DNA from: an uncultured bacterium | Lineage (GTDB): Bacteria > Cyanobacteriota > Vampirovibrionia > Gastranaerophilales > Gastranaerophilaceae | Assembly: GCA_949284155.1 (NCBI GenBank) | Contig: CASDVD010000092.1 | Location: 1-35,365 of the forward strand | Direction of reading: 5' to 3' | Length of the DNA: 35,365 bases | In this document: one piece after another, positions 732 to 16,321 of the stretch | How positions within the stretch are numbered: the stretch's first letter is position 1 | Layout: each line of letters starts with the position of its first letter | The notes under the pieces: model-generated | Seen by the model: only the letters and a program-made list of their open reading frames with translations | Databases searched by the model: none | Told to the model about the DNA's origin: nothing | Position numbers and translations under genes: made by a program

Positions 732-1454
732 ATGAAAAAGAACATTATTGGTTTTTGGGGATATCCAGACCCCGAGATTATTAACACAGCCAAAATTCAA
801 TACCCTCAAGCTCAGTGGGTAGATTTAGACATTGATTATTTTTACCCGAGAACAAACATACTCCCCGATTCATATTGCAAAATTATTAAAAATATAATTG
901 ATAATGCAATGCATTTAAAAAACAACATAATAAAAATTATTGCACCAATAGGCAAAGACAAATGCGATTCCGGATGGTTTGCTGCCGCTATACTAAAAGA
1001 TATCGGATTTAACGTGGAAACAACTATTTTTGAAAAACAGGAAATACTGCATGAACAAAAAATTTGTGAATCAAATTTAGGGTTAAAACAAAAATTTGAG
1101 TTAATAACAGATAGAATCATACATCCAACAGAACAGCAACTTGTAAAAACAAAACCCAGATTTGGTTTTTGGGGAGTTCCGCCTAATGATTTATCCATAC
1201 TGGAAATGTTTCCGGATGATACACATATATATGGCTGGACACGATGTGTAGAAGCAGGATGCCCGGCCAATCTGGAACTTGAAATGTATATAGAACCACA
1301 AGTTCCGACAGTATTTTACTCACAATCTTTTTGTTCGAAGTCGCAGCTCGCAAAATATCTTGCTGATAAATACAATGGACTTTTTATCGATGTAGATGAC
1401 TATGCAACAAAATCAACTAAGGCAAAAATAGAAGCGTTTGTGAAATTAAGATGA
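732..1454 (+). CDS. Unknown Cys-containing protein paired with an ATPase activase
   Basis: A 240-residue soluble protein with no signal peptide or membrane segment. I do not recognise the family. It seems to be built from two halves, each opening with the motif GFWG (residues 7-10 and 145-148) at the end of a hydrophobic strand, as in a Rossmann-like fold. It has six cysteines (49, 78, 112, 172, 177, 201); C172-x4-C177 and C201 are candidate metal or Fe-S ligands. Its stop overlaps the start of the BcrAD-like ATPase (ATGA at 1451-1454), so the two are almost surely translated together and probably work together. Activases of that family usually serve 2-hydroxyacyl-CoA dehydratases or double-cubane proteins; this partner is much shorter than either, so a link to those enzymes is only a suggestion. 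There is no clear SD; a TATAAT box lies 12 nt before the start. Confidence 0.8.
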   Translation: MKKNIIGFWGYPDPEIINTAKIQYPQAQWVDLDIDYFYPRTNILPDSYCKIIKNIIDNAMHLKNNIIKIIAPIGKDKCDSGWFAAAILKDIGFNVETTIFEKQEILHEQKICESNLGLKQKFELITDRIIHPTEQQLVKTKPRFGFWGVPPNDLSILEMFPDDTHIYGWTRCVEAGCPANLELEMYIEPQVPTVFYSQSFCSKSQLAKYLADKYNGLFIDVDDYATKSTKAKIEAFVKLR

Positions 1455-2149
1455 AAAAAACAGTGTTAGATGCAGGTACAACCTGGTCAAAAATTATAGA
1501 AAAAAATTCCAACACCCTTAAAACGGTATTTAAAAAATATCTGGTAAAAAGTTGTAATAATATGAATTATTACATATTGCCCTCTGCCGTTATTAAAGAG
1601 CACGAACTAAAATTTGATGCAATGACAGGGCACATGTCTGAAAAATTTATTGATTCAAAAGAGAAATATACAAATGAAATTATTGCGCTGACAAAAGGAG
1701 TCTCAAAATTATGCGAAGAGAACTCTATGATACTGGATTTAGGCAGCCGTGATGCAAAATGGGTAAGGTTTAAAAACGGCAAATTCTCGGATTTGGATTG
1801 GAATTCAGCCTGCGCAAGCTCAACCGGCGCAACAATAGAAATGCTAAAAAAGTTCTATAATGTGAAAGAACTACAACCCAATAAAAACAAATACAATATA
1901 ACCTGCGGAATATTCGGATTCGAAAAAATAATGGATGATATAGCTAACGGTGAAGATGCCTCGGACGCTATCGCAAAATTTGTACATGGAATAGCCTACA
2001 ATGCCTGGAATTTTTGCAAAAAGCCTGAAAAAATATATTTGTCAGGGGGGTTTTGCGAAAGCAGATGTTTTTGCGAATCCTTAGAAAATTATTGCAAAGT
2101 CGAAAAGCTCGGACGTTTTGTTTTATGCTCCGGCATCCTTGAGAATTAG
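1451..2149 (+). CDS. BadF/BadG/BcrA/BcrD-type ATPase (2-hydroxyacyl-CoA dehydratase activase-like)
   Basis: A 232-residue ASKHA-fold ATPase. Visible family marks are the phosphate-1 loop DAGTTWSK (7-14), the phosphate-2 loop LDLGSRDAK (95-103), ACASSTG (120-126) and LSGG (197-200). Cys121 and Cys152 sit where the activase HgdC has the two cysteines that bind one [4Fe-4S] cluster across its dimer, so the protein probably couples ATP hydrolysis to electron injection into a partner. It is somewhat shorter than characterised activases (about 260 residues), with 31 rather than 39 residues between the two Cys. Five further cysteines lie in the last 45 residues (189, 202, 206, 208, 215) plus 226, which is unusual. 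It overlaps the preceding gene by 4 bases; no dehydratase subunits are in the window. Confidence 0.82.
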   Translation: MKKTVLDAGTTWSKIIEKNSNTLKTVFKKYLVKSCNNMNYYILPSAVIKEHELKFDAMTGHMSEKFIDSKEKYTNEIIALTKGVSKLCEENSMILDLGSRDAKWVRFKNGKFSDLDWNSACASSTGATIEMLKKFYNVKELQPNKNKYNITCGIFGFEKIMDDIANGEDASDAIAKFVHGIAYNAWNFCKKPEKIYLSGGFCESRCFCESLENYCKVEKLGRFVLCSGILEN

Positions 2150-2220: not shown

Positions 2221-2760
2221 ATGGAACTAAAAGGTTCAAAAACAGAAGAAAATCTAAAAAAAGCATTTCAAGGTGAGTCTATTGCACGAAATAAATATTT
2301 GATATTTGCTGAAACAGCCAGAAAAAACGGATTTGTACAAATTTCAAAAATTTTTCAAGAAACCTCAGAAAATGAAGCAATGCACGGGAAAATATGGCTC
2401 GAATATTTAATGGGAGACAAATTCAATTCAACTCTTGAAAACTTAATAACTTCAGCGGAAACAGAGCACTATGAATGGACTCAAATGTATGCGGAATTTG
2501 CGCAGGTTGCAAAAAGTGAAGGATTTGATGACATAGCATTTCAGTTCGATAAAATCAGAAATATCGAAGAAATGCATGACACAAGATACACAAAACTAAT
2601 TGCGGACATAAAACAAGGAAATATTTTCAATAAGTCAGAAAAAGTAATCTGGGAATGCGCAAAATGCGGATATACTCACACAGACGAAAAAGCACCCCTG
2701 ATTTGTCCGTTTTGCAAACATCCTCAAGGGTACTTTTTCATAAAATGCTTTAATTATTAA
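2221..2760 (+). CDS. rbr: Rubrerythrin
   Basis: A 179-residue protein with an N-terminal ferritin-like diiron four-helix domain and a C-terminal rubredoxin domain. Diiron ligand candidates are Glu19 (AFQGES), Glu52 with His55 (NEAMH), Glu82 (TEH) and Glu117 with His119 (EEMH). The rubredoxin knuckles are C146-x2-C149 and C162-x2-C165 (CAKCGY and CPFCKHP), binding one Fe. Rubrerythrin reduces hydrogen peroxide in the cytoplasm of anaerobes. I chose the ATG at 2221 because AAGGAG (2209-2214) sits just upstream and the protein then begins MELKGSKTEENL as in other members; an in-frame upstream extension has no SD. It converges with the ABC exporter gene, the two stops sharing 4 bases. Confidence 0.95.
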   Translation: MELKGSKTEENLKKAFQGESIARNKYLIFAETARKNGFVQISKIFQETSENEAMHGKIWLEYLMGDKFNSTLENLITSAETEHYEWTQMYAEFAQVAKSEGFDDIAFQFDKIRNIEEMHDTRYTKLIADIKQGNIFNKSEKVIWECAKCGYTHTDEKAPLICPFCKHPQGYFFIKCFNY

Positions 2761-4541
2761 ACAGAAAGCTGCTCTGCTTTATTAAATTGCATTTCATAAA
2801 GCAGTCTGTATTTACCGTTAGGCAAGTTCATAAGCTCTTCATGAGTACCTATTTCAGCCAGCTCCCCTTCATTAATAACTGCAATTCTATCAGCATTGCT
2901 TATCGTAGAAAGCCTATGAGCAATAACAAAAACCGTTTTATTTTTCATAAGATTTTCAAGTGCTTTTTGTACTATAGCTTCTGATTTATTATCAAGAGCA
3001 GATGTTGCCTCATCTAAAATTATTATCGGAGCATTTTTCAGCATTGCTCTTGCTATAGCTACTCTCTGTCTTTGTCCGCCGGACAAGGAGGTTCCTCTTT
3101 CACCGATATAAGTATCTATACCATCCGGCATTTCATGTAAAAACTCATCCAAATGAGCAGCTCTGACAACTTCTTCTATTTGCTCATCAGTTGCATTAAA
3201 ATTACCCATTAAAAGATTTTCACGTATTGTGCCTGAAAAAAGAAAATTATCTTGGAATACTATTGCAATATTATTTCGCAAAGATTCCAATTTATAATCT
3301 CTAATATCAACACCATCAATCTTAATCGAACCGGATTTTACGTCGTAGAATCTCGGGATAAGATTTGCAATAGTAGATTTTCCGCCGCCGGAATTGCCGA
3401 CAAGAGCGAGAGTTTCACCGAGTTTTACATTTAAATTAATATCCTTTAATACAGGTACATCCTTTTCATATTCAAAAAACACATGCTCAAAAGAAACACC
3501 GTCTTTTATTTGTTCAAGAGCAACAGCATTTTCTTTATCAGCAATATCAGGATTTAAATCAAACAACTCAAAAGTTCTGTCCATTGCAACAAAAAGAGTC
3601 TGCAAACTTGTCAATGTATTCCCCATAGTTTTTATAGGTTTATACAGCAGCAATAAAGAAGTAACAAATGATAATAAACTACCGCTTGACATCTTACCTG
3701 TGATAACAAGGTACGTACCATAACCCAGAACTAATGCAATACCGACAGACGCAATTAAGTACATTATAGGCGACATCCAGCCGGCACGCTTGACCAAAGA
3801 CATGTTAACATCAAACATTGCATTTATATTATTGATAAATTTTTGATGTTGATGTTTAGAAAGATTATACGCCGCAATTATTTTATTTCCCGAATATGTT
3901 TCATTAAAATTAGTTGTTAAATCGCCTCCGAGCACCATATTTTTAGTTGAGGCCGCTTTAATTCTTTTTCTTATCAATGCGACCGGCAAAAATGCAACAC
4001 AAAGCACTAATACGCCAACGAGTGCTAATTGCCAGGAATTATAGAGCATAACACCAATCAATGCAACCGCACCTGTTCCTGCGGCAGTAAAGGCCTTTAT
4101 ATTATCTAAGATTCCCCTTGAAGCAGTATCGGGATCTGAAAGATAACGAGTCAGAACGATACCTGAGGAATTATCATCATAAAATTTGGGATCCATATGA
4201 ACCAGCCTGTCAAATAAAGCTATTTTGACTGAATTAGTAACTTTTTGACCGCACCAGTTTGCCAAATAATCATTTAAATATCTTAAAACACCCTGCAATG
4301 CAGCAAACATAATGATTCCAAACGGAATTAAAAACGCCAGAAGCATATTCTTTTTTATCAATACTTCATCCATATACGGCTTTAGTGCATATGCAACAAC
4401 ACCATCCAAAAGTCCAACAGGTATTGCTATAATAAATCCGATAATAACTCTGCCAAGATAAGGTTTTATAAACACATAAATCCTTTTTAAAAGATAAGCA
4501 TAATTAAATGCTCCTAAAGCTTGTGAATTTTTTAATTTCAT
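2757..4541 (-). CDS. ABC exporter, MsbA-like (fused permease and ATPase)
   Basis: A 594-residue type IV (formerly type I) ABC exporter half-transporter. The membrane domain occupies about residues 15-330, with six hydrophobic segments. The ATPase domain follows: Walker A GNSGGGKST (382-390), Q-loop VFQDNF (near 428), signature LSGGQRQR (486-493), Walker B IIILDE (506-511), D-loop SALD and H-loop AHRLS. Such proteins work as homodimers in the inner membrane. MsbA-type members flip lipid A or other lipids, and others export drugs or peptides; the sequence alone does not decide. I chose ATG at 4539-4541. A TTG six codons upstream overlaps GGAG, which is better read as the SD for the ATG. Confidence 0.9.
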   Translation of the reverse strand: MKLKNSQALGAFNYAYLLKRIYVFIKPYLGRVIIGFIIAIPVGLLDGVVAYALKPYMDEVLIKKNMLLAFLIPFGIIMFAALQGVLRYLNDYLANWCGQKVTNSVKIALFDRLVHMDPKFYDDNSSGIVLTRYLSDPDTASRGILDNIKAFTAAGTGAVALIGVMLYNSWQLALVGVLVLCVAFLPVALIRKRIKAASTKNMVLGGDLTTNFNETYSGNKIIAAYNLSKHQHQKFINNINAMFDVNMSLVKRAGWMSPIMYLIASVGIALVLGYGTYLVITGKMSSGSLLSFVTSLLLLYKPIKTMGNTLTSLQTLFVAMDRTFELFDLNPDIADKENAVALEQIKDGVSFEHVFFEYEKDVPVLKDINLNVKLGETLALVGNSGGGKSTIANLIPRFYDVKSGSIKIDGVDIRDYKLESLRNNIAIVFQDNFLFSGTIRENLLMGNFNATDEQIEEVVRAAHLDEFLHEMPDGIDTYIGERGTSLSGGQRQRVAIARAMLKNAPIIILDEATSALDNKSEAIVQKALENLMKNKTVFVIAHRLSTISNADRIAVINEGELAEIGTHEELMNLPNGKYRLLYEMQFNKAEQLSV

Positions 4542-4647: not shown

Positions 4648-5679
4648 ATGGAATTCAAAAATATTTTTACATTGAAAAATATTATATTTCTTCTTTTTAT
4701 TTTATTTATAATTTTTTGTATAGTAAAAATGACTGATGTTGCCCTCCTTGTTTTTGCCAGTTACGTAATTTCTTGTGCAATAAATCCTCTTATTAACAAA
4801 TTATCCGAAAAAATGCCGCGCACGGCAGCAACGCTGCTTATGATTACGTTAATAACAATTGTTACTCTCGGCGTGTTCATCCCGATTATAGCAATGTCAG
4901 TCAGAGAAATTAAAGATTTTGTTACTCAGCTTCCTCATCAGGTGGAGCATATTGCTGCATATCTGGACAGTTTAAAAATAGGCACGCAAAGCCTGTCTGA
5001 CGTATTTAATTTAGATGACGGATTAACAAATTCAACACAAATTTTTCAGCAAATTATTGACAAATCTATAAACTTTACAGTAGGTGTTGTCGGTGTTTTT
5101 ACAATTATTGTTACTATTGGAATAATTGTATTCTTCTTCTCTAATGACAGAGACAAAATTAAAGAAAGTTCTCTTAAACTTTTTCCTGTACAATTTAGAG
5201 AAAATGCTTCAAGAATTATGGATGACTTAGAAACAAAAGTCGGAGGCTATGTAACAGCACAGATACTATCAATCTCTATAGTCGGCATAGTAGTAGCAGT
5301 TGTTCTCGCAATACTTCATGTTCCTTATGCCGTATTTTTGGGTTTTATATCAGCAATCTTAGACCTTGTGCCGATTGTAGGGCCCATACTTTCCGGAGTT
5401 TTAATACTACTGGTTGCGTTTCCGAAAGGCCTTCTTATTATTATACTATCAATAGGTTCCCTTCTTCTTGGCCAGTTTCTCGAAAACAACTGGGCAAAAC
5501 CTTATTTCTTTTCAAAATATATGGATTTGCACCCGCTGATAGTAATCTTTTCTTTTGTAATTGCTGCTAAAATTTTGGGAGTAATTGGCGTATTGCTCGC
5601 TCCTGCCATAGCCGCAGTCATAGTTACTTTATTTGAAGAACTTTATATAAAAACAATGAATAACGGAAGTATTGACTAA
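4648..5679 (+). CDS. AI-2E transporter family (PerM/YdiK-like) membrane protein
   Basis: A 343-residue polytopic inner-membrane protein. Hydrophobic segments lie at about 9-45, 58-83, 145-166, 205-226, 230-265, 265-280 and 297-330. The signature DLVPIVGPILSG in the second half, and the following LLLGQFLENNWAKPY region, match the AI-2E/PerM family. Between the first helices and the third lies a soluble region with amphipathic helices (about 85-140). Members have been linked to AI-2 export, Na+/H+ exchange and general permease roles, so the substrate is not safely predicted. The SD AGGGGG sits 7 bases before the ATG. The stop and the next start overlap (TAATG at 5677-5681), so it is co-transcribed with the radical SAM gene. 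Confidence 0.85.
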   Translation: MEFKNIFTLKNIIFLLFILFIIFCIVKMTDVALLVFASYVISCAINPLINKLSEKMPRTAATLLMITLITIVTLGVFIPIIAMSVREIKDFVTQLPHQVEHIAAYLDSLKIGTQSLSDVFNLDDGLTNSTQIFQQIIDKSINFTVGVVGVFTIIVTIGIIVFFFSNDRDKIKESSLKLFPVQFRENASRIMDDLETKVGGYVTAQILSISIVGIVVAVVLAILHVPYAVFLGFISAILDLVPIVGPILSGVLILLVAFPKGLLIIILSIGSLLLGQFLENNWAKPYFFSKYMDLHPLIVIFSFVIAAKILGVIGVLLAPAIAAVIVTLFEELYIKTMNNGSID

Positions 5680-7271
5680 TGAGTGAAATATTTTTATATG
5701 ACAGACACATTGATAAAACACCGGAAATAAATATATGGACAGCTTTTCCTGCTATTTATTCTTTCGGAATGTCCTCGTTGGGTTTTATGTCAATATTCAG
5801 AAGGTTAGATGAACATAAAGACTACTTTGTCGAAAGAATTTTCGTGGATACTAAAGAAACAGTACTACCGCTTGAAGCCGTAGATTTAATGTGTTTTTCT
5901 TTTTCTTTTGAAATTGATTTTCTCGGCATGTTTAAAATTATGCAAAAATACAACATTCCATTTAATGCAAAAGACAGAGATGAAAACTTTCCTCTCATTT
6001 TTGCAGGCGGGCCTGTTTTAACAGCAAATCCGGAACCTTTCGCTAATTTCTTTGATTTTATAATAATTGGTGATGCCGAACAGATTGACAAAACTGTTAT
6101 CAATTTTATAAAACAGAATAAAAATTTGCCAAAGAATGAACTGCTCCTTAAATTGTCTGAATTGGACGGAATTTATGTACCATCTGTAACAAGCTTTGAT
6201 GCTAATTCAAACCTTGTGCTAAAGAACGGAAAATTATTCAGTGTGAACAAAATTTCAGCAGAATTGAATGATTGTGTAACAACCCCAATCTTGAGCGAAA
6301 AAAGTTTTTTCTCTAACACTTTTATTATAGAAATCGCCAGAGGTTGTTCTCAAAGATGCGGATTCTGTCTTGCTTCATATTTAAATTTACCGACCAGATT
6401 TGCACCTTATGAAAAGATTATTGAAAGTATTGATACAGCGCTTAAATATACAGATAAAATTGCATTGCTTGGAGCTCTAATCACCGCACACCCGGACTTT
6501 GAAAAAATCTGTGAATACATATTAAAGAAAAAAGAAGAAATTCCGGAACTTGAAATGTCTGTTTCTTCACTTCGGGCTGACGCTATTTCTCCTATTATTA
6601 TCAAAACACTTACGGCCTGCGGTCAAAAACATTCAACTATTGCAATAGAAGCCGGTTCTGAACGCTTAAGAAAATTAATAAATAAAAATTTAACGGAAGA
6701 ACAAATCTTTAATACGGTAAAAACAGCAAAAGAAAACGGCCTTCAGGGTTTAAAAATATATGTAATGATAGGACATCCGACAGAAACCCAACAGGATATA
6801 GATGAACTAATTTCTCTCGCAAAACGTTTGAAGAAGGAATACAAAAATTTTGAGTTTACATATTCATTTGCAACATTTGTACCAAAAGCTCAAACACCTT
6901 TTCAATATTGTAAAAGAGCAAATTCAAAATCACTCGATAAAAAATATAACTATTTGAAAAAACATTTTCATCGCCTTGGAATAAAAATAAGATGCTCCAG
7001 TGTAAACTGGGATTATTTTCAGGCACTTTTATCCAGAGGAGACAGAAGACTCGGCGACTACCTTATTGATGTCTACAACGAAGGCGGAAATCTCGGTGCT
7101 TTTAAACAATCATATAAAAAGTTCAGACAAAAAAAATTACTTCCTCCTTCAGACGACTTTGCTTTAAAAGAAATTTCCGCCGAAAAAAATTCACCCTGGA
7201 ATTTTATTAAACTATGTCCCGGAGAAGAAGCCCTTAAAAATGAGCATAAAAGATTAATGAAAAATGCATAA
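5679..7271 (+). CDS. Radical SAM protein with N-terminal B12-binding-like domain
   Basis: A 530-residue protein. The N-terminal 180 residues resemble the cobalamin-binding-like domain found in many radical SAM proteins (IWTAFPAIYSFGMSSLGFMSIF opens similarly to the 'P..Y..GMS.LG' group; the passage here is given in short pieces only: IWTAFPAIYSFG, then MSSLGFMSIF). The classic DxHxxG cobalamin loop is not obvious, so B12 may not bind. The radical SAM core begins at ARGCSQRCGFC: C223-x3-C227-x2-C230 bind a [4Fe-4S] cluster that cleaves S-adenosylmethionine. 'IAIEAGSERLR' and 'YVMIGHPTET' are the expected SAM-binding barrel motifs. The C-terminal about 130 residues (HRLGIKIRCSSVNWDYFQALLSRGDRRLG) are typical of the YgiQ/TIGR03960-like branch. 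The substrate is unknown. It overlaps the AI-2E-family gene by one base. Confidence 0.85.
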   Translation: MSEIFLYDRHIDKTPEINIWTAFPAIYSFGMSSLGFMSIFRRLDEHKDYFVERIFVDTKETVLPLEAVDLMCFSFSFEIDFLGMFKIMQKYNIPFNAKDRDENFPLIFAGGPVLTANPEPFANFFDFIIIGDAEQIDKTVINFIKQNKNLPKNELLLKLSELDGIYVPSVTSFDANSNLVLKNGKLFSVNKISAELNDCVTTPILSEKSFFSNTFIIEIARGCSQRCGFCLASYLNLPTRFAPYEKIIESIDTALKYTDKIALLGALITAHPDFEKICEYILKKKEEIPELEMSVSSLRADAISPIIIKTLTACGQKHSTIAIEAGSERLRKLINKNLTEEQIFNTVKTAKENGLQGLKIYVMIGHPTETQQDIDELISLAKRLKKEYKNFEFTYSFATFVPKAQTPFQYCKRANSKSLDKKYNYLKKHFHRLGIKIRCSSVNWDYFQALLSRGDRRLGDYLIDVYNEGGNLGAFKQSYKKFRQKKLLPPSDDFALKEISAEKNSPWNFIKLCPGEEALKNEHKRLMKNA

Positions 7272-8603: not shown

Positions 8604-9578
8604 ATGACAGTTCAAAAGATACAATTTAAATCATTCACCAGTCCTGAAGGGCTGCCAGGGTCAATTAACGGCACCGGCTTTAATAAAGGTAAAAAACTTT
8701 ATAATAAAGACGGATTCAACAATACAGGCTCTCAGCTTATGGAGGCGCAAATAAGCAAAAAGGCGCCGGGGTCTTTGAACAACGAGAAGGGCTATTTGCA
8801 TATTAAAAATGAAGAATTGTATCCTAAATCCCGCAATAATACTATAGTTATAAAATCACACTCTAAGTCTAACTATACGTCTAACAAAAATTTGAATAAG
8901 AGCAACCAAAAGACCGCAGAAATCAGTTTCGGCGGTCTTTTAAATTCTTCACCCAAAGCAGTAAAATCTCTAACAGAAACAAAAGCCTGGAAATTTTCAC
9001 AAAATAAATGGACAAAATGGTTCGTTGATAAAGCAGCAACAAATCAGGCAGTTTTTGAAGCTTTAAATGCGCTTGTTATAACTTGTGCATTGCGCCCGGC
9101 GGCTATACTTGCCCAAAATAATGACAATAACAGAGAAAAAAATAAGAAAGCCGCTTCTCACTCGATTGCTTCAGGAATAATAGGATACGGCTTTGCAGTG
9201 GCATTGTTTACGCCAATTGCACAAGGATTAAAAAAAATTAAAAATAATCCGGAAAAATATGCACAAAAAGCTGCTGAATTTTTCCGAACAAACGGAACTA
9301 AAAAGGTTTCAATGGAAGCATCTAAAAAATTCGCTGCCTATACAATGATTTGCACCTACGGGCCGCAGCTGTTCACCGCAGCAGTACGCTCTGCTGTTAC
9401 AATAGCAATGATACCGGTGATTGACAAATTATTGTTAAATAAAATTTTTGGAACACCTAAAAAACAAGACAAATATGTTCCGCCGACAATTGATCCAATG
9501 TACAACTATTACTATCTCAATTTTTCAAGCAGCCAGTCTAAAAAAGCTTTTCAAAGCTTTACAGGGGTAATAAAATAA
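8604..9578 (+). CDS. Unknown membrane protein with FGG motif (first of a pair)
   Basis: A 324-residue protein I do not recognise. The first about 105 residues are polar, Asn/Lys/Ser-rich and probably disordered, ending in EISFGG (106-111). There follow two hydrophobic regions: about 147-165 with 175-205 (FEALNALVITCALRPAAILA and the SGIIGYGFAVALFTPIAQ stretch), and about 245-275 (YTMICTYGPQLFTAAVRS...MIPVID). No signal peptide is seen at the N terminus. Its stop overlaps the start of the next gene (TAATG), and the two proteins share a layout: a short F-[GK]-G motif, a hydrophobic pair around an Asn/Glu/Lys-rich turn, then a C-terminal hydrophobic segment. They may form one membrane complex. 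The ATG at 8604 has only a purine-rich SD-like stretch. Confidence 0.75.
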   Translation: MTVQKIQFKSFTSPEGLPGSINGTGFNKGKKLYNKDGFNNTGSQLMEAQISKKAPGSLNNEKGYLHIKNEELYPKSRNNTIVIKSHSKSNYTSNKNLNKSNQKTAEISFGGLLNSSPKAVKSLTETKAWKFSQNKWTKWFVDKAATNQAVFEALNALVITCALRPAAILAQNNDNNREKNKKAASHSIASGIIGYGFAVALFTPIAQGLKKIKNNPEKYAQKAAEFFRTNGTKKVSMEASKKFAAYTMICTYGPQLFTAAVRSAVTIAMIPVIDKLLLNKIFGTPKKQDKYVPPTIDPMYNYYYLNFSSSQSKKAFQSFTGVIK

Positions 9579-10537
9579 TGCAAATTCATGCTATCACAAC
9601 ATCTTCTGCAACAAGACACAATGCTCAACTATTTAAAGGCATCAATCCCAATAATGCAAAAAACGGAATAAGCAAAGCCTATGATGCATTAACAGACGTC
9701 ATTGCATATGGAGAAGGAAAACTTGCAAGTACATCTCTAATGAAAAGATTTATAAACTTCATGAAAGATAAAAACTATCAGCAGCACATAGTTGCATCAG
9801 TGGGACTCGTTCTTTCTTTATTTTACATGGCTGATACAGCCCGCTCAAAAAATATTGAAGAAGACCAAAAACTTCCCTTGATAATGAATCAAGGTGTTGT
9901 TTCAGTTGCGTCAACCGTAGGCGGTTACACTCTCGATAACTATCTCACTAAAAAATTGAATAATTTTACAGAAACTTTCAATATTGCAAATATTTCTGAT
10001 GAGCAAATTCAAAAGACTATCCTCGAAATGCACAAAAAGAAAGACAGTCTGGAAAAAACTGATTTCGAAAAGCTTTTCAATATATTAAAAAAATCACAGG
10101 ACAATAAAAATTATACATACGAAAAAAATATAAAAGAAACTTTTGAGGTTGACAGAGGCACTATTAAACAGCTTAAACAGGAACTTAAGAAAAACCCTGA
10201 AAATGCAGTCATCAAAAAAGTGCTTTCCCAAATAGAGGCAATCTCTCAAAGTGATGCAAATAAATCTGCAAAAGTAACAGAGATATATTTTAAACATATT
10301 AATGAAAGTCCTTTAATGAAAAAGATTTTTTCACGTAATGGTTTTACACAATCATTAAAACTCGTTACGGAAAATCAAAAAAGCCTGTCGCAGTTGATGA
10401 CCGGATTGAAGACAGCTAAATCACTTATGGTATTCGGATTAATTTATCGTTTCATAAGCCCTGTTATAGCAACTCCGATTGCAAACAGCATGAGTGAAAG
10501 AATTGAAAAAAAGAAAAGTACTAAAGTATCGGCTTAA
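9578..10537 (+). CDS. Unknown membrane protein (second of the pair)
   Basis: A 319-residue protein of unknown family. LFKGI (18-22) resembles the SFGG motif of its partner. Hydrophobic stretches lie at about 70-90 (IVASVGLVLSLFYMADTA), about 105-122 (MNQGVVSVASTVGGYTLD) and about 288-308 (LMVFGLIYRFISPVIATPIA). Between them (about 135-285) lies a charged, helical, Lys/Glu-rich region that should be soluble. The C terminus is basic (ERIEKKKSTKVSA). It overlaps the 8604 gene by one base, so the two are translationally coupled. AGGGG lies 10 bases before the ATG. The function is unknown. Confidence 0.75.
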   Translation: MQIHAITTSSATRHNAQLFKGINPNNAKNGISKAYDALTDVIAYGEGKLASTSLMKRFINFMKDKNYQQHIVASVGLVLSLFYMADTARSKNIEEDQKLPLIMNQGVVSVASTVGGYTLDNYLTKKLNNFTETFNIANISDEQIQKTILEMHKKKDSLEKTDFEKLFNILKKSQDNKNYTYEKNIKETFEVDRGTIKQLKQELKKNPENAVIKKVLSQIEAISQSDANKSAKVTEIYFKHINESPLMKKIFSRNGFTQSLKLVTENQKSLSQLMTGLKTAKSLMVFGLIYRFISPVIATPIANSMSERIEKKKSTKVSA

Positions 10538-10610: not shown

Positions 10611-12032
10611 TTATTTAATATTGGATTTTACATATTCAATAAGTTGTTTTGCAACATTTTCAGGGAGTTCAATACCACGGGAACGGATAATATCATCGAG
10701 AGATAATGTCTTACCATCGGTTATTGAATGAAATATTTTTTGCTGCGTTTCAACAGGCAATGCTGAAAATGCGGCAGCATAGCTTTCGGGAGTATAAATA
10801 CCTTCAAGGAATGTCTGTTCTGGAGCAGCAGAACCCAAATTAAAACTTGCGGCGTCTTTCTCAGGATTTATAGCAAAGGTTTTATTGAGTTCATTCTGAC
10901 GGATAGCATGTGCTGCTCGTCTGTCTGCTTCTACTACTCCGGAAACTGAATTGTTCGGTGTTGAATAAGCTGTTCTGATATTGTTTGTATTTTTTTGTGA
11001 TATATTTTCAAATTGAGCTTTTATTGCTGCTGCCTCTGCTGTGGGCATAGAAGCAAATGTTTTATTGAGTTCATTCTGACGGATAGCATGTGCAGCCCGT
11101 CTGTCTGCTTCTACTACTCCGGAAACTGAATTGTTCGGTATTGAATAAGCTGTTCTGATATTGTTTGTATTTTTTTGTGATATATTTTCAAATTGAGCTT
11201 TTATTGCTGCTGCCTCTGCTGTGGGTTTCATCGACTGAACCGGAGGTTTAGGACTATTTTTGCCGGCGGCTGCTAAAATTGTATTCATGTTTTGATTAAT
11301 GTTACTCTTGAGTCCGCCTATTATTGAAGCAAGTCCGGCCTTTACTTGAGGGTCAGGCTGGGTTTTAACAGCAGCTGCTGAAGCCTGCGGCGCAACTTGA
11401 GGTTGTATTGGCGGAGCAACTTGAGGTTGAACCGGCGGTGTAACAGGATTAGCTGCCGGTTTTACAGGAGCATACCTCAATGTAGAAGGGTCAACCATAT
11501 AAGTAACAGGTTTTTGTACATATGGTCTAAATTGTTTATAGACTTTTATTTTATTAGACGCATTAGCAGAGTTATTTCCTGATTGCGTAGCAGCAGGATT
11601 TTGATGTTTTAAATTATTTGCCGTATTTTTTGTATTTTTTGCGGCAGTTTTTGCTAAATTCTTATTACGGGTTCTAAAGGCAGCTATTGCAAGAGCTACA
11701 GAGCCAAGAGCCGTACCCAGAATACCAAGAATAGTAGGCATATCATCGCTCGGAACATCTGCCGGAATAGGTCTGCCATGATAATTATTAATATGCTGAT
11801 CATTCTTAATTACAGCCTCACGGGTTCGTTGACTGATTAACGGATCAACGACATTGCCGTATCCTCCGTAGATACCATAGCCATAGCCTGAACCGGGAGC
11901 AATATTGGCATTCATTCCCGATGGATAGCCGGGAAGATAACCGCCGCCAATATTATAATTGGCCTGAATATTACCCATTGGTGAATACAGACTTTCAAAT
12001 CTTGTGTTGAAATTGTCCAAACCTAAAGACAT
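10611..12032 (-). CDS. Unknown Gly/Tyr- and Pro/Gln-rich membrane-anchored protein with a 60-residue tandem repeat
   Basis: A 473-residue protein of unknown family. Residues 28-60 are Gly/Tyr-rich (PGSGYGYGIYGGYGN). One hydrophobic segment (99-119, PTILGILGTALGSVALAIAAF) is followed by Arg/Lys, which suggests a single membrane anchor. Next come an Asn/Lys/Ala-rich stretch and a Pro/Gln/Val linker with the repeated unit QPQVAP (about 195-215). Two nearly identical 60-residue repeats then follow (about 270-329 and 330-387, each with TAEAAAIKAQFENIS and VVEADRRAAHAIRQNELNK), and a C-terminal domain (about 395-473) ending ELPENVAKQLIEYVKSNIK. GGAG lies 8 bases before the ATG. The layout suggests a surface or periplasm-spanning protein, which is inference. 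Confidence 0.75.
   Translation of the reverse strand: MSLGLDNFNTRFESLYSPMGNIQANYNIGGGYLPGYPSGMNANIAPGSGYGYGIYGGYGNVVDPLISQRTREAVIKNDQHINNYHGRPIPADVPSDDMPTILGILGTALGSVALAIAAFRTRNKNLAKTAAKNTKNTANNLKHQNPAATQSGNNSANASNKIKVYKQFRPYVQKPVTYMVDPSTLRYAPVKPAANPVTPPVQPQVAPPIQPQVAPQASAAAVKTQPDPQVKAGLASIIGGLKSNINQNMNTILAAAGKNSPKPPVQSMKPTAEAAAIKAQFENISQKNTNNIRTAYSIPNNSVSGVVEADRRAAHAIRQNELNKTFASMPTAEAAAIKAQFENISQKNTNNIRTAYSTPNNSVSGVVEADRRAAHAIRQNELNKTFAINPEKDAASFNLGSAAPEQTFLEGIYTPESYAAAFSALPVETQQKIFHSITDGKTLSLDDIIRSRGIELPENVAKQLIEYVKSNIK
10872..11225 (-). repeat. Nearly perfect 180-bp tandem duplication inside the 473-residue protein gene
   Basis: Bases 10872-11045 and 11052-11225 are the same apart from about four substitutions, with a period of exactly 180 bases (60 codons). 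The frame is kept. The high identity even at third codon positions points to a recent duplication or ongoing conversion between copies. Confidence 0.95.
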
Positions 12033-12281
12033 AACCTAATCTCCAAACTATTAAACACTACCGTATCTTTATAAAAACAATTAATCTGTACAAATTGCTT
12101 AAACAGTAAAAATTATTAAGAAATATTAAGAATAAAATGGGTAATTTGTCACGAAATTTCAGCAAGGATTAGACTATATACAAAAAATTGTAATAAAAAT
12201 TCCAACTGTCTACTACCATTTTAAATGTCAGCAAGTAGAATATATATAAGGTGTACATAATACATTTAAGAGGAGAAGCAG

Positions 12282-13670
12282 ATGCTGGAATTTAACTGTA
12301 AAAACGTGACCGAAAGCGTTATCGGCTCTGAAAACGGGCTTAACCTTGAGGAAGAGTTTAATAATTATTCTGACAAAATTGCAAGAATAATAAATGAGTT
12401 AAATTCTAAAAAAGATAAACCCGGCCAATGGCTGCAATGGATGAACCTTGGATACAACGAAGAAACCGTCTGGCTGGTAAAAGAATATGCAGCTATGGTT
12501 CAAAATCAGTTTGACAACATACTGGTATTGGGAATAGGCGGGTCTGCACTCGGCGGAATGGCATTATGTGAGGCACTTTTAAAACCATATTGGAATTTGC
12601 TCTCTAATGAACAGCGTAATAATTTGCCTAAAATTTTCTTTCTGGACAATATAGACCCGGATCAGATTAACGGTTTGTTAGACATATTGGACTTGAAAAA
12701 AACACTTGTAAATGTAATAACAAAATCCGGCTCAACCGCAGAAACAATGTCGCAGTTTATGATTGTCAAAAGCAGGTTAGAAGCAGAGCTTGGCGATGAA
12801 TACAGAAAAAATGTAGTCGCAACGACCGACAAAAATGCCGGAATTTTACGCCAAATTTCAAATGAAGAAGGATACAAAACATTTGTCGTTCCTGATGATG
12901 TCGGAGGAAGATTTTCCGTATTTTCAGCCGTCGGCCTTCTTCCCTTTGCACTTGTTGGAATCGACATAGAAGAATTGATTCAGGGTGTAAAAGATATGGA
13001 TTTGGCACTCAAAAATACGGATATCAGACATAATATTGCAGCACAAAATGCATTGATACATTACCTGATGGACACAAAAAAAGGAAAAAATTTATCAGTA
13101 ATGATGCCATATTCCAGCAAATTAAAATATATTTCAGACTGGTATGTTCAACTTTGGGCTGAAAGTTTAGGAAAAAATAAAGATAATGACGGAAACTCCG
13201 TTAACATAGGCCCGACACCAATAAAAGCTCTAGGTGCTACTGACCAGCACTCACAAATCCAACTATACAACGAAGGCCCGAATGATAAGCTGATTAATTT
13301 CATTAGAGTTAAACAGTTTGATACAACTTTGGAAATTCCTAAAATATTTGAATTTACCGGCATAGGATACCTCGGAGGCAAAACTATTAATGACTTGATA
13401 AATGCCGAAGCCGAATCAACAAAAGTTGCTCTTATTGATTATCAAAGACCAAATGTAACTCTGACAATTGACAGAGTTTGCCCTTATGATTTAGGACAAC
13501 TAATCTATATGCTTGAAGTACAAACGGCGATTGCAGGAGAATTATACAATATAAACACCTTTAACCAGCCGGGAGTAGAACAAGCTAAAAATTACACATA
13601 CGCTCTTATGGGACGGGCAGGATATGAAGATTCAGCCAATGCTCTGAGAGAAAAAATGGCGATACAATAA
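12282..13670 (+). CDS. pgi: Glucose-6-phosphate isomerase
   Basis: A 462-residue enzyme interconverting glucose 6-phosphate and fructose 6-phosphate in glycolysis and gluconeogenesis. The length fits the shorter Bacillus-type form rather than the 550-residue enterobacterial form. Two SIS sugar-phosphate-binding domains are visible: VLGIGGSALGG (82-92) and TKSGSTAET near 150, followed by VGGRFSVFSAVGLLP. The family pattern 'D.HSQ.QLY.EGP.D' (DQHSQIQLYNEGPND) carries the catalytic glutamate region, and 'NQPGVEQAKN' near the C terminus carries the active-site lysine. The start has a strong SD (AGAGGAGA). It stands alone, with no clear terminator after it. Confidence 0.97.
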   Translation: MLEFNCKNVTESVIGSENGLNLEEEFNNYSDKIARIINELNSKKDKPGQWLQWMNLGYNEETVWLVKEYAAMVQNQFDNILVLGIGGSALGGMALCEALLKPYWNLLSNEQRNNLPKIFFLDNIDPDQINGLLDILDLKKTLVNVITKSGSTAETMSQFMIVKSRLEAELGDEYRKNVVATTDKNAGILRQISNEEGYKTFVVPDDVGGRFSVFSAVGLLPFALVGIDIEELIQGVKDMDLALKNTDIRHNIAAQNALIHYLMDTKKGKNLSVMMPYSSKLKYISDWYVQLWAESLGKNKDNDGNSVNIGPTPIKALGATDQHSQIQLYNEGPNDKLINFIRVKQFDTTLEIPKIFEFTGIGYLGGKTINDLINAEAESTKVALIDYQRPNVTLTIDRVCPYDLGQLIYMLEVQTAIAGELYNINTFNQPGVEQAKNYTYALMGRAGYEDSANALREKMAIQ

Positions 13671-13852: not shown

Positions 13853-16321
13853 ATGTCTGACATAAATTATTTTGAAATTATAAAAAATAAACTGGATGCA
13901 GTCGTAGATAAGATTATGCAAAGAGAAGCATCCGATGAAAATTTTCGTATAACTTATGCTCAAATTTTAGAAAAAATTAATACGAAAATGGATCTCTTTT
14001 CATCTACTGATGAAATTCAAAAAATAGAAATATTAGGCTCTGAAGTAAGAAATCTCATTTGTGAAAAAGATGAAAATCTAAATTCAAAACTCACCGGATT
14101 GTGCAAAGATTTTGACGAATTATATGATCAAGTGCAAAATTGCATAAAAACACCGGAAATAGTTCAGGCATTTCAAACACTCCAAAAAAATATTAAATAT
14201 TTCTCTGAAGAAATCGAAAATCAAAGAGCCGCACTAAATAATTTAATCACTAATATAGAAAAATTCGGCAACCTCGATAACACTAACAGATTTCTTGAAA
14301 GTGAATTTAATATTATTAAAAGCCAAAATGCCATAATAAACGATACACTTGTTAATCAGCTGCAAGCTTTAAATAATCATACAAAAGAATATGATACAAA
14401 ATTTATTGAATTAATAAGCACTATCAACCAGGATCTTAATGACGTTATGGAACGTGCAAAAATGCTTCCTGAAAAAAGTGACACAAACATTATTTTCAAT
14501 AAGATAGAAGAACTGACCCTACAGTTTGAAGAATCTAAAAACTTTATTCTCGGTATCAACAATAACATAGTCACTTTAATCGATGTTGTTGACAACATAT
14601 TTTCAAATGACGATTTTGAAAAAACACAAAAAGAAATCTCTGAGGTTTTAGTTAATACCACTCTTTTGTCAGAAGCTGTTAAGCTTCTTTGTACAAAAGA
14701 AGATATTAATTCTTCGCTAAACGAAAGCTCAGATGACATAAAAAAATACACCTCTGATTTAATTGAGCATCTTGAAGAAAAAATTCTGTCAAAACTTGAT
14801 TTTTCAGCTCTTGACAATGTAAAAGACTTTGCGGAAAAAATTCTATTCCAGGGTACTGAAGTCTTAAAAGAAGAAATTTGGTCTATTAAAGATTCTGTCG
14901 GAGAAGTAAAGGGTGATATTGAAAATATCAGTACAAAACTCGATACTTTACGTGATGAAATAGCGGACAATCTTTCAAAAGAAAGTATTGCAAAGGCATA
15001 TCAATTTGAAAACATTGCAGAAACAGTAATAAAAAAACAGGCTAATCAATTAAATGCGGCTAAAGAAGAAATTACAGAAATTATCTCAGAAGAAAGCATT
15101 GCAACTCAAAATCAACTAAATACACTTAAAGATGAAGTAACTGACATAATTTCAGAAGAAAGTACAGCTTCACAAAGTCAAATAAGCAGCCTAAAAAATG
15201 AGCTTTCACAGCTTATTTCAAAAGAAAACATTGCTACGCAGAATGAAATCAAAAATCTAAAAGAAGATAGTAAAGAATCAATAGACTCATTAAAAAAACA
15301 ATTTTTAACGCAGCTTGTTCAGGTTGCGGAAAATATTTCATTTGTCGAAGAAGCAGAAGATATACATGAGCATATCTACACTATCTCAGATGAAATAGCC
15401 GAAAAGATTAATTCTCTGAAAAATACTTCTGAAGTTAATGCACAAGATCTTATTAAACTGCTTGAAAAAATCAATTCAAGAATAACAGGAGATTATGCAG
15501 AAGGCGATTATATCTATACATTGCCGGATGTGGAATCAGATTTAACAAAAATCAGATTGGATTTGAACAATATCTCCAAAACGCTTATTAATACAGAAAA
15601 TATGTCTGATGAAAAAATAGGCGATATTTATTCAAGCTTAAACAACTTAAAAATAAGCATAGAAAGACTTGAAAACAGCAATGTCAATGAAGAAATTGTT
15701 GAAGTAAAAAAACGTTTTGATGAGCTTAACGAAGATATATCAAGTATCAGCAAAAGAACAAATAAGCTGATAATCTCTTCTGATGAAGTTAATAAAACTC
15801 TCCAAAAACATATCGATGAATTTACAAAAATTGTTGAACATTTTGATACAGTTACTAAAAAGTTTACAGACGATGCATTAATACACAACATAAATCAAAG
15901 ACTAGAAATTCTTGTAAACTCTAATAAAGCATTAAATGAAGCATTTATGTATCTAGCCGAATGGATTGATAATACCAGTGAATCATTTAACAGTATAAAA
16001 GAAAACTTTGCTAAAATATCGGAAAAATACGAAGAACCTGATTATACAGCTGATAATTTAAAAATTCTTTCAAAAAAAGTTGAACAACAAGAAGCGAAAC
16101 TTGTTTTAATAAATGAAAAACTTGATACGCTCATGAACGGAGATAATTCTGAAGTAAAATCACTTTTAGAATTTATTGCCTCTCAGGTAAGTGTTGCAAA
16201 TGAAAAGATTATAGAACACGATAAAATGGCTCAGCGTGTTGAATCTATTGAAAGACAGCTTAAAAAAGTCGAAAAAAATATAGGACTGATTACAGCTTAT
16301 CTTGAGGATGATGAAGACTAG
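13853..16321 (+). CDS. Long coiled-coil protein with 22-residue repeats
   Basis: An 822-residue, acidic, almost wholly helical protein with no signal peptide and no membrane segment. I do not recognise a catalytic domain. Heptad-rich coiled coil runs through most of it. Around residues 405-471 three 22-residue repeats stand out, each of the form [ED]-[IVL]-x-x-[IL]-I-S-[EK]-E-x-x-A-x-[QS]-x-[QE]-[IL]-x-x-L-K, and a related unit precedes them (DEIADNLSKESIAKA). Such 22-mers resemble the amphipathic helices of apolipoprotein-like and late-embryogenesis proteins. A conserved-looking C terminus (about 770-822) ends in an acidic tail (LEDDED). A structural, cytoskeletal or chromosome-associated role is possible but unproven. 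The start has only a weak SD. Its stop overlaps that of the small minus-strand gene at 16318. Confidence 0.85.
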   Translation: MSDINYFEIIKNKLDAVVDKIMQREASDENFRITYAQILEKINTKMDLFSSTDEIQKIEILGSEVRNLICEKDENLNSKLTGLCKDFDELYDQVQNCIKTPEIVQAFQTLQKNIKYFSEEIENQRAALNNLITNIEKFGNLDNTNRFLESEFNIIKSQNAIINDTLVNQLQALNNHTKEYDTKFIELISTINQDLNDVMERAKMLPEKSDTNIIFNKIEELTLQFEESKNFILGINNNIVTLIDVVDNIFSNDDFEKTQKEISEVLVNTTLLSEAVKLLCTKEDINSSLNESSDDIKKYTSDLIEHLEEKILSKLDFSALDNVKDFAEKILFQGTEVLKEEIWSIKDSVGEVKGDIENISTKLDTLRDEIADNLSKESIAKAYQFENIAETVIKKQANQLNAAKEEITEIISEESIATQNQLNTLKDEVTDIISEESTASQSQISSLKNELSQLISKENIATQNEIKNLKEDSKESIDSLKKQFLTQLVQVAENISFVEEAEDIHEHIYTISDEIAEKINSLKNTSEVNAQDLIKLLEKINSRITGDYAEGDYIYTLPDVESDLTKIRLDLNNISKTLINTENMSDEKIGDIYSSLNNLKISIERLENSNVNEEIVEVKKRFDELNEDISSISKRTNKLIISSDEVNKTLQKHIDEFTKIVEHFDTVTKKFTDDALIHNINQRLEILVNSNKALNEAFMYLAEWIDNTSESFNSIKENFAKISEKYEEPDYTADNLKILSKKVEQQEAKLVLINEKLDTLMNGDNSEVKSLLEFIASQVSVANEKIIEHDKMAQRVESIERQLKKVEKNIGLITAYLEDDED

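Follow-up and report, generated by a model that had tools for sequence, protein, structure and literature searches.

Gene pair and genomic context

The window, that is, the whole stretch of DNA analysed (35,365 nucleotides), is a contig of a Candidatus Gastranaerophilales genome. In the list of its open reading frames we found two genes on the plus strand that overlap by four bases: GF (732..1454), coding for a two-domain protein of 240 residues and predicted Fe-S electron acceptor, and AT (1451..2149), coding for a BcrAD/HgdC-type activase ATPase of 232 residues. The overlap (ATGA, 1451..1454) comprises the stop of GF and the start of AT. Each half of the GF protein opens with a GFWG motif, at residues 7–10 for the N-terminal half (750..761) and at residues 145–148 for the C-terminal one (1164..1175), and profile comparison found the halves to be alike over 26 columns around it (P = 7e-5). 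The overlap, the length and the two GFWG-opened halves had all been listed in the original prediction and were reproduced here.

The other side of GF is occupied by a divergent gene of an SDF-family (GltP/DctA-like) symporter (1–599). In many other lineages, its homologue immediately precedes GF in the same orientation: the distance is 0–19 bases in loci L059, L060, L063, L082, L083, L099 and L111, about 10 bases in L164 and L167 and, in another family, about 88 bases in L169. As 91 of the 99 relatives carry a symporter of this family irrespective of GF, the neighbour is a weak substrate hint at most, and a metabolic role read from the neighbours (dicarboxylate/glutamate-type symporter) was rejected.

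AT is followed by a rubrerythrin gene (2221–2760), which probably begins with the ATG at position 2221, preceded by AAAGGAG, and not at 2179. A rubrerythrin gene follows the pair in the window's congener as well, and in L033 a rubrerythrin-like gene (11899–12459) is found at a greater distance downstream of the two genes. The unlinked AT of genome G040 (L119, 6079–7669) has as its neighbours genes of ferritin and desulfoferrodoxin, likewise connected with oxidative stress. Farther along the window, a radical-SAM protein related to TIGR03960, scoring far below the cut-off (291 vs 462 bits), is encoded at 5679–7271, and proteins with no Pfam family above cut-off are encoded at 8604–10537 (two adjacent ones of about 320 residues) and at 13853–16321 (822 residues).

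The activase

AT is a divergent activase of the BcrAD/HgdC type. It passes PF01869 (33.2 bits, cut-off 31.5), while staying under the curated cut-off of TIGR00241 (58.5 vs 125.4 bits), and matches 1hux at 1.3e-9 by sequence; the profile search against PDB gave 7.7e-12. The top Foldseek match is DCCP reductase (DCCP-R; 7yyl_E, 2.6e-14), and MbdQ and HadI are matched too. The activase-like protein methanogenesis marker 15 is matched weakly as well. The phosphate and adenosine motifs of the ASKHA fold are conserved (D7–T10, D96–D101, S198–G200). Both cysteines originally assigned to the cluster, Cys121 (1811..1813) and Cys152 (1904..1906), are retained in all 88 aligned sequences, and each precedes a helix in the model (125–135 and 153–165, respectively, by DSSP).

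The six cysteines noticed earlier after residue 188 are indeed there (189, 202, 206, 208, 215 and 226), with conservation ranging from 88/88 for Cys202 and 86/88 for Cys206 to 79/88 for Cys215 and 56/88 for Cys226; Cys189 and Cys208 are not conserved. Cys202 and Cys206 belong to the adenosine motif GGFCExxC (2054..2068); cysteines at these positions are absent from the canonical activases compared, YjiL having one nearby in the same motif. This cysteine pair, specific to the AT family, may bind a metal or act as a redox switch on nucleotide binding.

The same genome carries, on separate contigs, a gene for a DUF2229 protein (L116, 5811–6863) and one for a full-length canonical activase (L130, 4942–5946). 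In genome G059, a possible separate activase-related cluster (L122, 1737–6199) comprises two DUF2229-type genes that flank a PHP-like gene (345 residues) and are followed by a radical-SAM/SPASM gene.

Cysteines and homologues of GF

A scan of the genome collection yielded 243 GF loci, the best 80 of which were kept. In the alignment of 121 distinct homologues, with identity down to 46%, Cys49 (876..878), Cys78 (963..965) and Cys201 (1332..1334) are invariant (121/121), and Cys172 (1245..1247) is nearly so (117/121, missing in four). The remaining two, Cys112 and Cys177, are not conserved, and hence four of the six cysteines of GF matter: the original count of six was right, but only Cys49, Cys78, Cys172 and Cys201 are conserved.

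No Pfam or NCBIfam family scored above cut-off for GF, no PDB chain was found by sequence in either single or profile searches, and the sequence search against plasmids and viral contigs yielded no usable match. Weak shikimate-kinase and serine-kinase matches fell below cut-off, and such a kinship was rejected. PF06050 matches neither GF nor its 80 aligned relatives; a PF06050 dehydratase as the conserved partner of AT was discarded as well, since the relatives from the order contain partial C-terminal matches only, and those examined turned out to be DUF2229 proteins. Nor does the Pfam model of DUF2229 match GF, and the idea of a DUF2229 relative was dropped because DUF2229 proteins scored no better than decoys in the profile comparison with GF. 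The original prediction was exposed to the appearance of a match to an unrelated known family, and none arose in Pfam, NCBIfam or PDB.

Predicted fold and kinship of GF

The AlphaFold (AF2) model of GF, based on 81 sequences, has a mean pLDDT of 90.4 and a pTM of 0.76. In the model, which starts at strand 1, each half consists of four strands and helices, and a single helix (118–130) lies between the halves. Cys49 and Cys172 are placed after strand 2, and Cys78 and Cys201 after strand 3, of the respective halves. Subunits of the dehydratase/BCR/DCCP kind are recognized by two alpha/beta domains with four parallel strands each, and GF is predicted to have four strands per half. In the make-up of strands and helices and in the placement of the cysteines, the modelled halves are like the two domains described for BzdNO (PMC11971306).

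When the model was compared by Foldseek with 350,542 PDB chains, only four chains had E ≤ 0.001: two of MbdO/N from 3-methylbenzoyl-CoA reductase (9g87_B, 1.3e-6; 9gai_B, 1.8e-5) and two of DCCP (7yyl_A, 1.8e-5; 7yzm_A, 3.7e-5), the fifth match reaching only 2.8e-3. All four are subunits served by AT-type activases, and the search was blind to the activase. The TM-scores are low (0.34–0.40) and the rmsd is about 10 Å, so that either the domains are arranged differently or the model departs from these structures, and our claim is limited to local domain similarity.

Alignment of YjiM with eleven diverse relatives revealed two sets of three cysteines, one universal (YjiM 78, 108 and 335) and one conserved in part (40, 273 and 302). 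The best alignment of GF with the YjiM-type profile extends over 222 columns and puts Cys49 on YjiM Cys78 and Cys78 on Cys108; in the alignment started from the sequence of G108, a genome from outside the class, Cys201 falls on YjiM Cys335 and the C-terminal IAKVEAF on STRVAAF. The gap in the profile alignment corresponds to the middle helical domain. The score, 23.5, barely exceeds that of the best of 57 decoys (21.9), with an HH probability of about 2%, but the alignments of the twelve best decoys cover only 11–31 columns. At the level of sequence, it is thus suggested, but not statistically established, that GF is homologous to the dehydratase/BCR/DCCP family.

Both the AF2 model and the profile gap indicate that GF is devoid of the helical middle domain and of the N-terminal helix (CoA channel). 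In the BCR-type family a four-helix bundle helps to form the CoA channel, and TudS is a one-domain relative (PMC11971306). Having two domains, no bundle and four conserved cysteines, GF is intermediate in build between TudS and DCCP. The original prediction had treated GF as an unknown protein and not a dehydratase; the Foldseek matches and the cysteine register revise this, as GF looks like a minimal two-domain relative of the subunits of 2-hydroxyacyl-CoA dehydratase, benzoyl-CoA reductase or DCCP, without the helical CoA-channel domain.

Linkage and co-inheritance of GF and AT

An AT gene was found within the flank in 50 of the 81 GF loci (the best 80 of 243 plus the window), and the four-base overlap recurs in 40 of the 48 directly linked loci. 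Among 99 relatives, GF is present in 52: 51 genomes have both genes, one has GF only, one has AT only, and 46 have neither (Fisher P = 5e-26, a value that ignores phylogeny). In both exceptions, G078 and G063, the gene is situated at a contig end, and hence the missing partner may be simply unassembled. The same tendency was observed over 386 genomes of the phylum, where GF and AT are present in 74 genomes each and 73 are common to both, the exceptions being G406 and G362.

The two genes are often unlinked and yet both kept, as in G059, G025, G040 and G074 and in many genomes of genera g8 and g24. Congeners vary jointly: G001 has both genes and G002 neither; likewise, G048 has both and G011 neither. 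In G108, GF (2467–3189) is directly followed by AT (3190–3846); the first GFWG reads GFYG, and all key cysteines are kept, including Cys172 of GF and Cys202/Cys206 of AT. The conservation of the cysteines in the homologues of both proteins, together with the recurring four-base overlap, indicates that the pattern is more than chance. Neither the cysteines nor the pairing proved to be lost in relatives, a loss on which the original prediction might have foundered. The compact acceptor that it proposed, tied specifically to the activase, is supported by their conservation across classes and by the four best folds, all of them activase acceptors. In the literature searched (most subscription journals lying outside it) we found no mention of Gastranaerophilales with an activase.

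Proposed mechanism and alternatives

GF and AT probably constitute a two-component, ATP-driven system of low-potential electron transfer. In the AT dimer, one [4Fe-4S] cluster would be held by Cys121 and Cys152 of both subunits, and the dimer would receive an electron from ferredoxin or flavodoxin; in a putative complex of the two proteins, ATP binding and hydrolysis would then push this electron into GF. There, an Fe-S cluster would be situated between the two alpha/beta domains, with Cys49, Cys78 and Cys201 as predicted ligands and Cys172 as a possible fourth one. For comparison, the cluster of BzdO is held by Cys95, Cys128 and Cys380, and the double cubane of BzdN by Cys36, Cys73, Cys100, Cys263, Cys293 and Cys327 (PMC11971306). 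As GF has no helical CoA-channel domain, its substrate is probably a small molecule other than a CoA thioester, which GF would reduce or activate, being in this respect nearer to DCCP than to a dehydratase.

The destination of the electron may be different. If GF were a shuttle or a maturation factor, AT would charge GF, and GF would in turn reductively activate a third protein or the metal cofactor of that protein. The small size of GF and its lack of the CoA-channel domain would suit such a role, no enzyme gene constantly adjoins GF, its neighbours varying by lineage, and the resemblance of AT to methanogenesis marker 15 points in the same direction. However, among the two families tested we found no third gene co-inherited with the pair, while the arrangement of three cysteines as in the family points to a cluster that has an open site, so that we regard a shuttle as unlikely, though as deserving some weight.

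It could also be argued that the fold match reflects a generic alpha/beta likeness, the cysteines of GF being catalytic or structural and no Fe-S cluster being bound. The low TM-scores and a profile score hardly above the decoys would agree with this. On the other hand, if the likeness were generic, one would not expect four of four matches at E ≤ 0.001 to be activase acceptors in a search that did not use the activase as information, nor a cysteine register and a full-length alignment to arise unimposed; we thus consider this explanation improbable. Finally, the acceptor served by AT might be a different one, for instance the DUF2229 protein encoded in the same genome along with a canonical activase, the role of GF being unrelated, but this is very improbable, since nearly all relatives possess DUF2229/HGD-D-like genes, whether AT is present or not, whereas GF and AT co-occur almost without exception, even when unlinked.

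Going back to direct electron transfer from AT to GF, the pair might represent a branch of ATP-driven "super-reductases" that is both new and minimal, with the smallest two-domain acceptor known for an HgdC/BcrAD-type activase and a substrate other than a CoA thioester, in non-photosynthetic relatives of cyanobacteria from the gut. This we put forward tentatively, with somewhat more doubt than belief. Most described activase partners act on CoA esters. A 240-residue partner that has only the two domains holding the cluster and four conserved cysteines would reveal the minimal needs of an acceptor, and GF would lend itself well to studying what activase systems do without CoA. The pair also adds to the gut Gastranaerophilales a redox trait that varies between close relatives. 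Activase-driven electron transfer is among the few biological routes to very low potentials (under about −600 mV; PMC11971306).

Comparison with known systems

The DUF2229 proteins share with GF their presence in the same genome and have an HGD-D-like C terminus, but they are longer (about 350–390 residues) and are found in nearly all relatives irrespective of AT. The TudS/DUF523 desulfidases are not known to have an activase. They are compact like GF, have the same fold and a three-cysteine [4Fe-4S] cluster (PMC11971306, PMC10611767), but consist of one domain only and remove sulfur instead of performing an ATP-driven reduction; GF, with two domains and a co-inherited activase, falls outside this pattern.

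In the case of the 2-hydroxyacyl-CoA dehydratases (HgdAB/HgdC, HadBC/HadI), the likeness is on the side of the activase: AT matches HgdC and HadI and has the two conserved cluster cysteines before helices. Unlike the dehydratase components, GF is single and short, has no CoA-channel domain and does not match PF06050. Class I benzoyl-CoA reductases (MbdONPQ, BzdNOPQ) provide the top fold match of GF (9g87_B), MbdQ resembles AT, and the cluster of BzdO is held, as it may be in GF, on three cysteines (PMC11971306). They differ in having two different acceptor subunits of about 380–440 residues, with a four-helix bundle lining the CoA channel, and two activase subunits.

DCCP and DCCP-R (YjiM and YjiL of E. 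coli) differ from the pair in the acceptor: DCCP has 383–422 residues against 240 in GF, contains the N-terminal helix and the helical middle domain that GF is without, and uses six cysteines to hold an [8Fe-9S] double cubane, against four conserved cysteines in GF. In other respects the two systems are alike, as a single acceptor gene stands beside that of a short activase, DCCP-R is the top structural match of AT, GF matches DCCP in predicted fold, and the three universal cysteines are in register.
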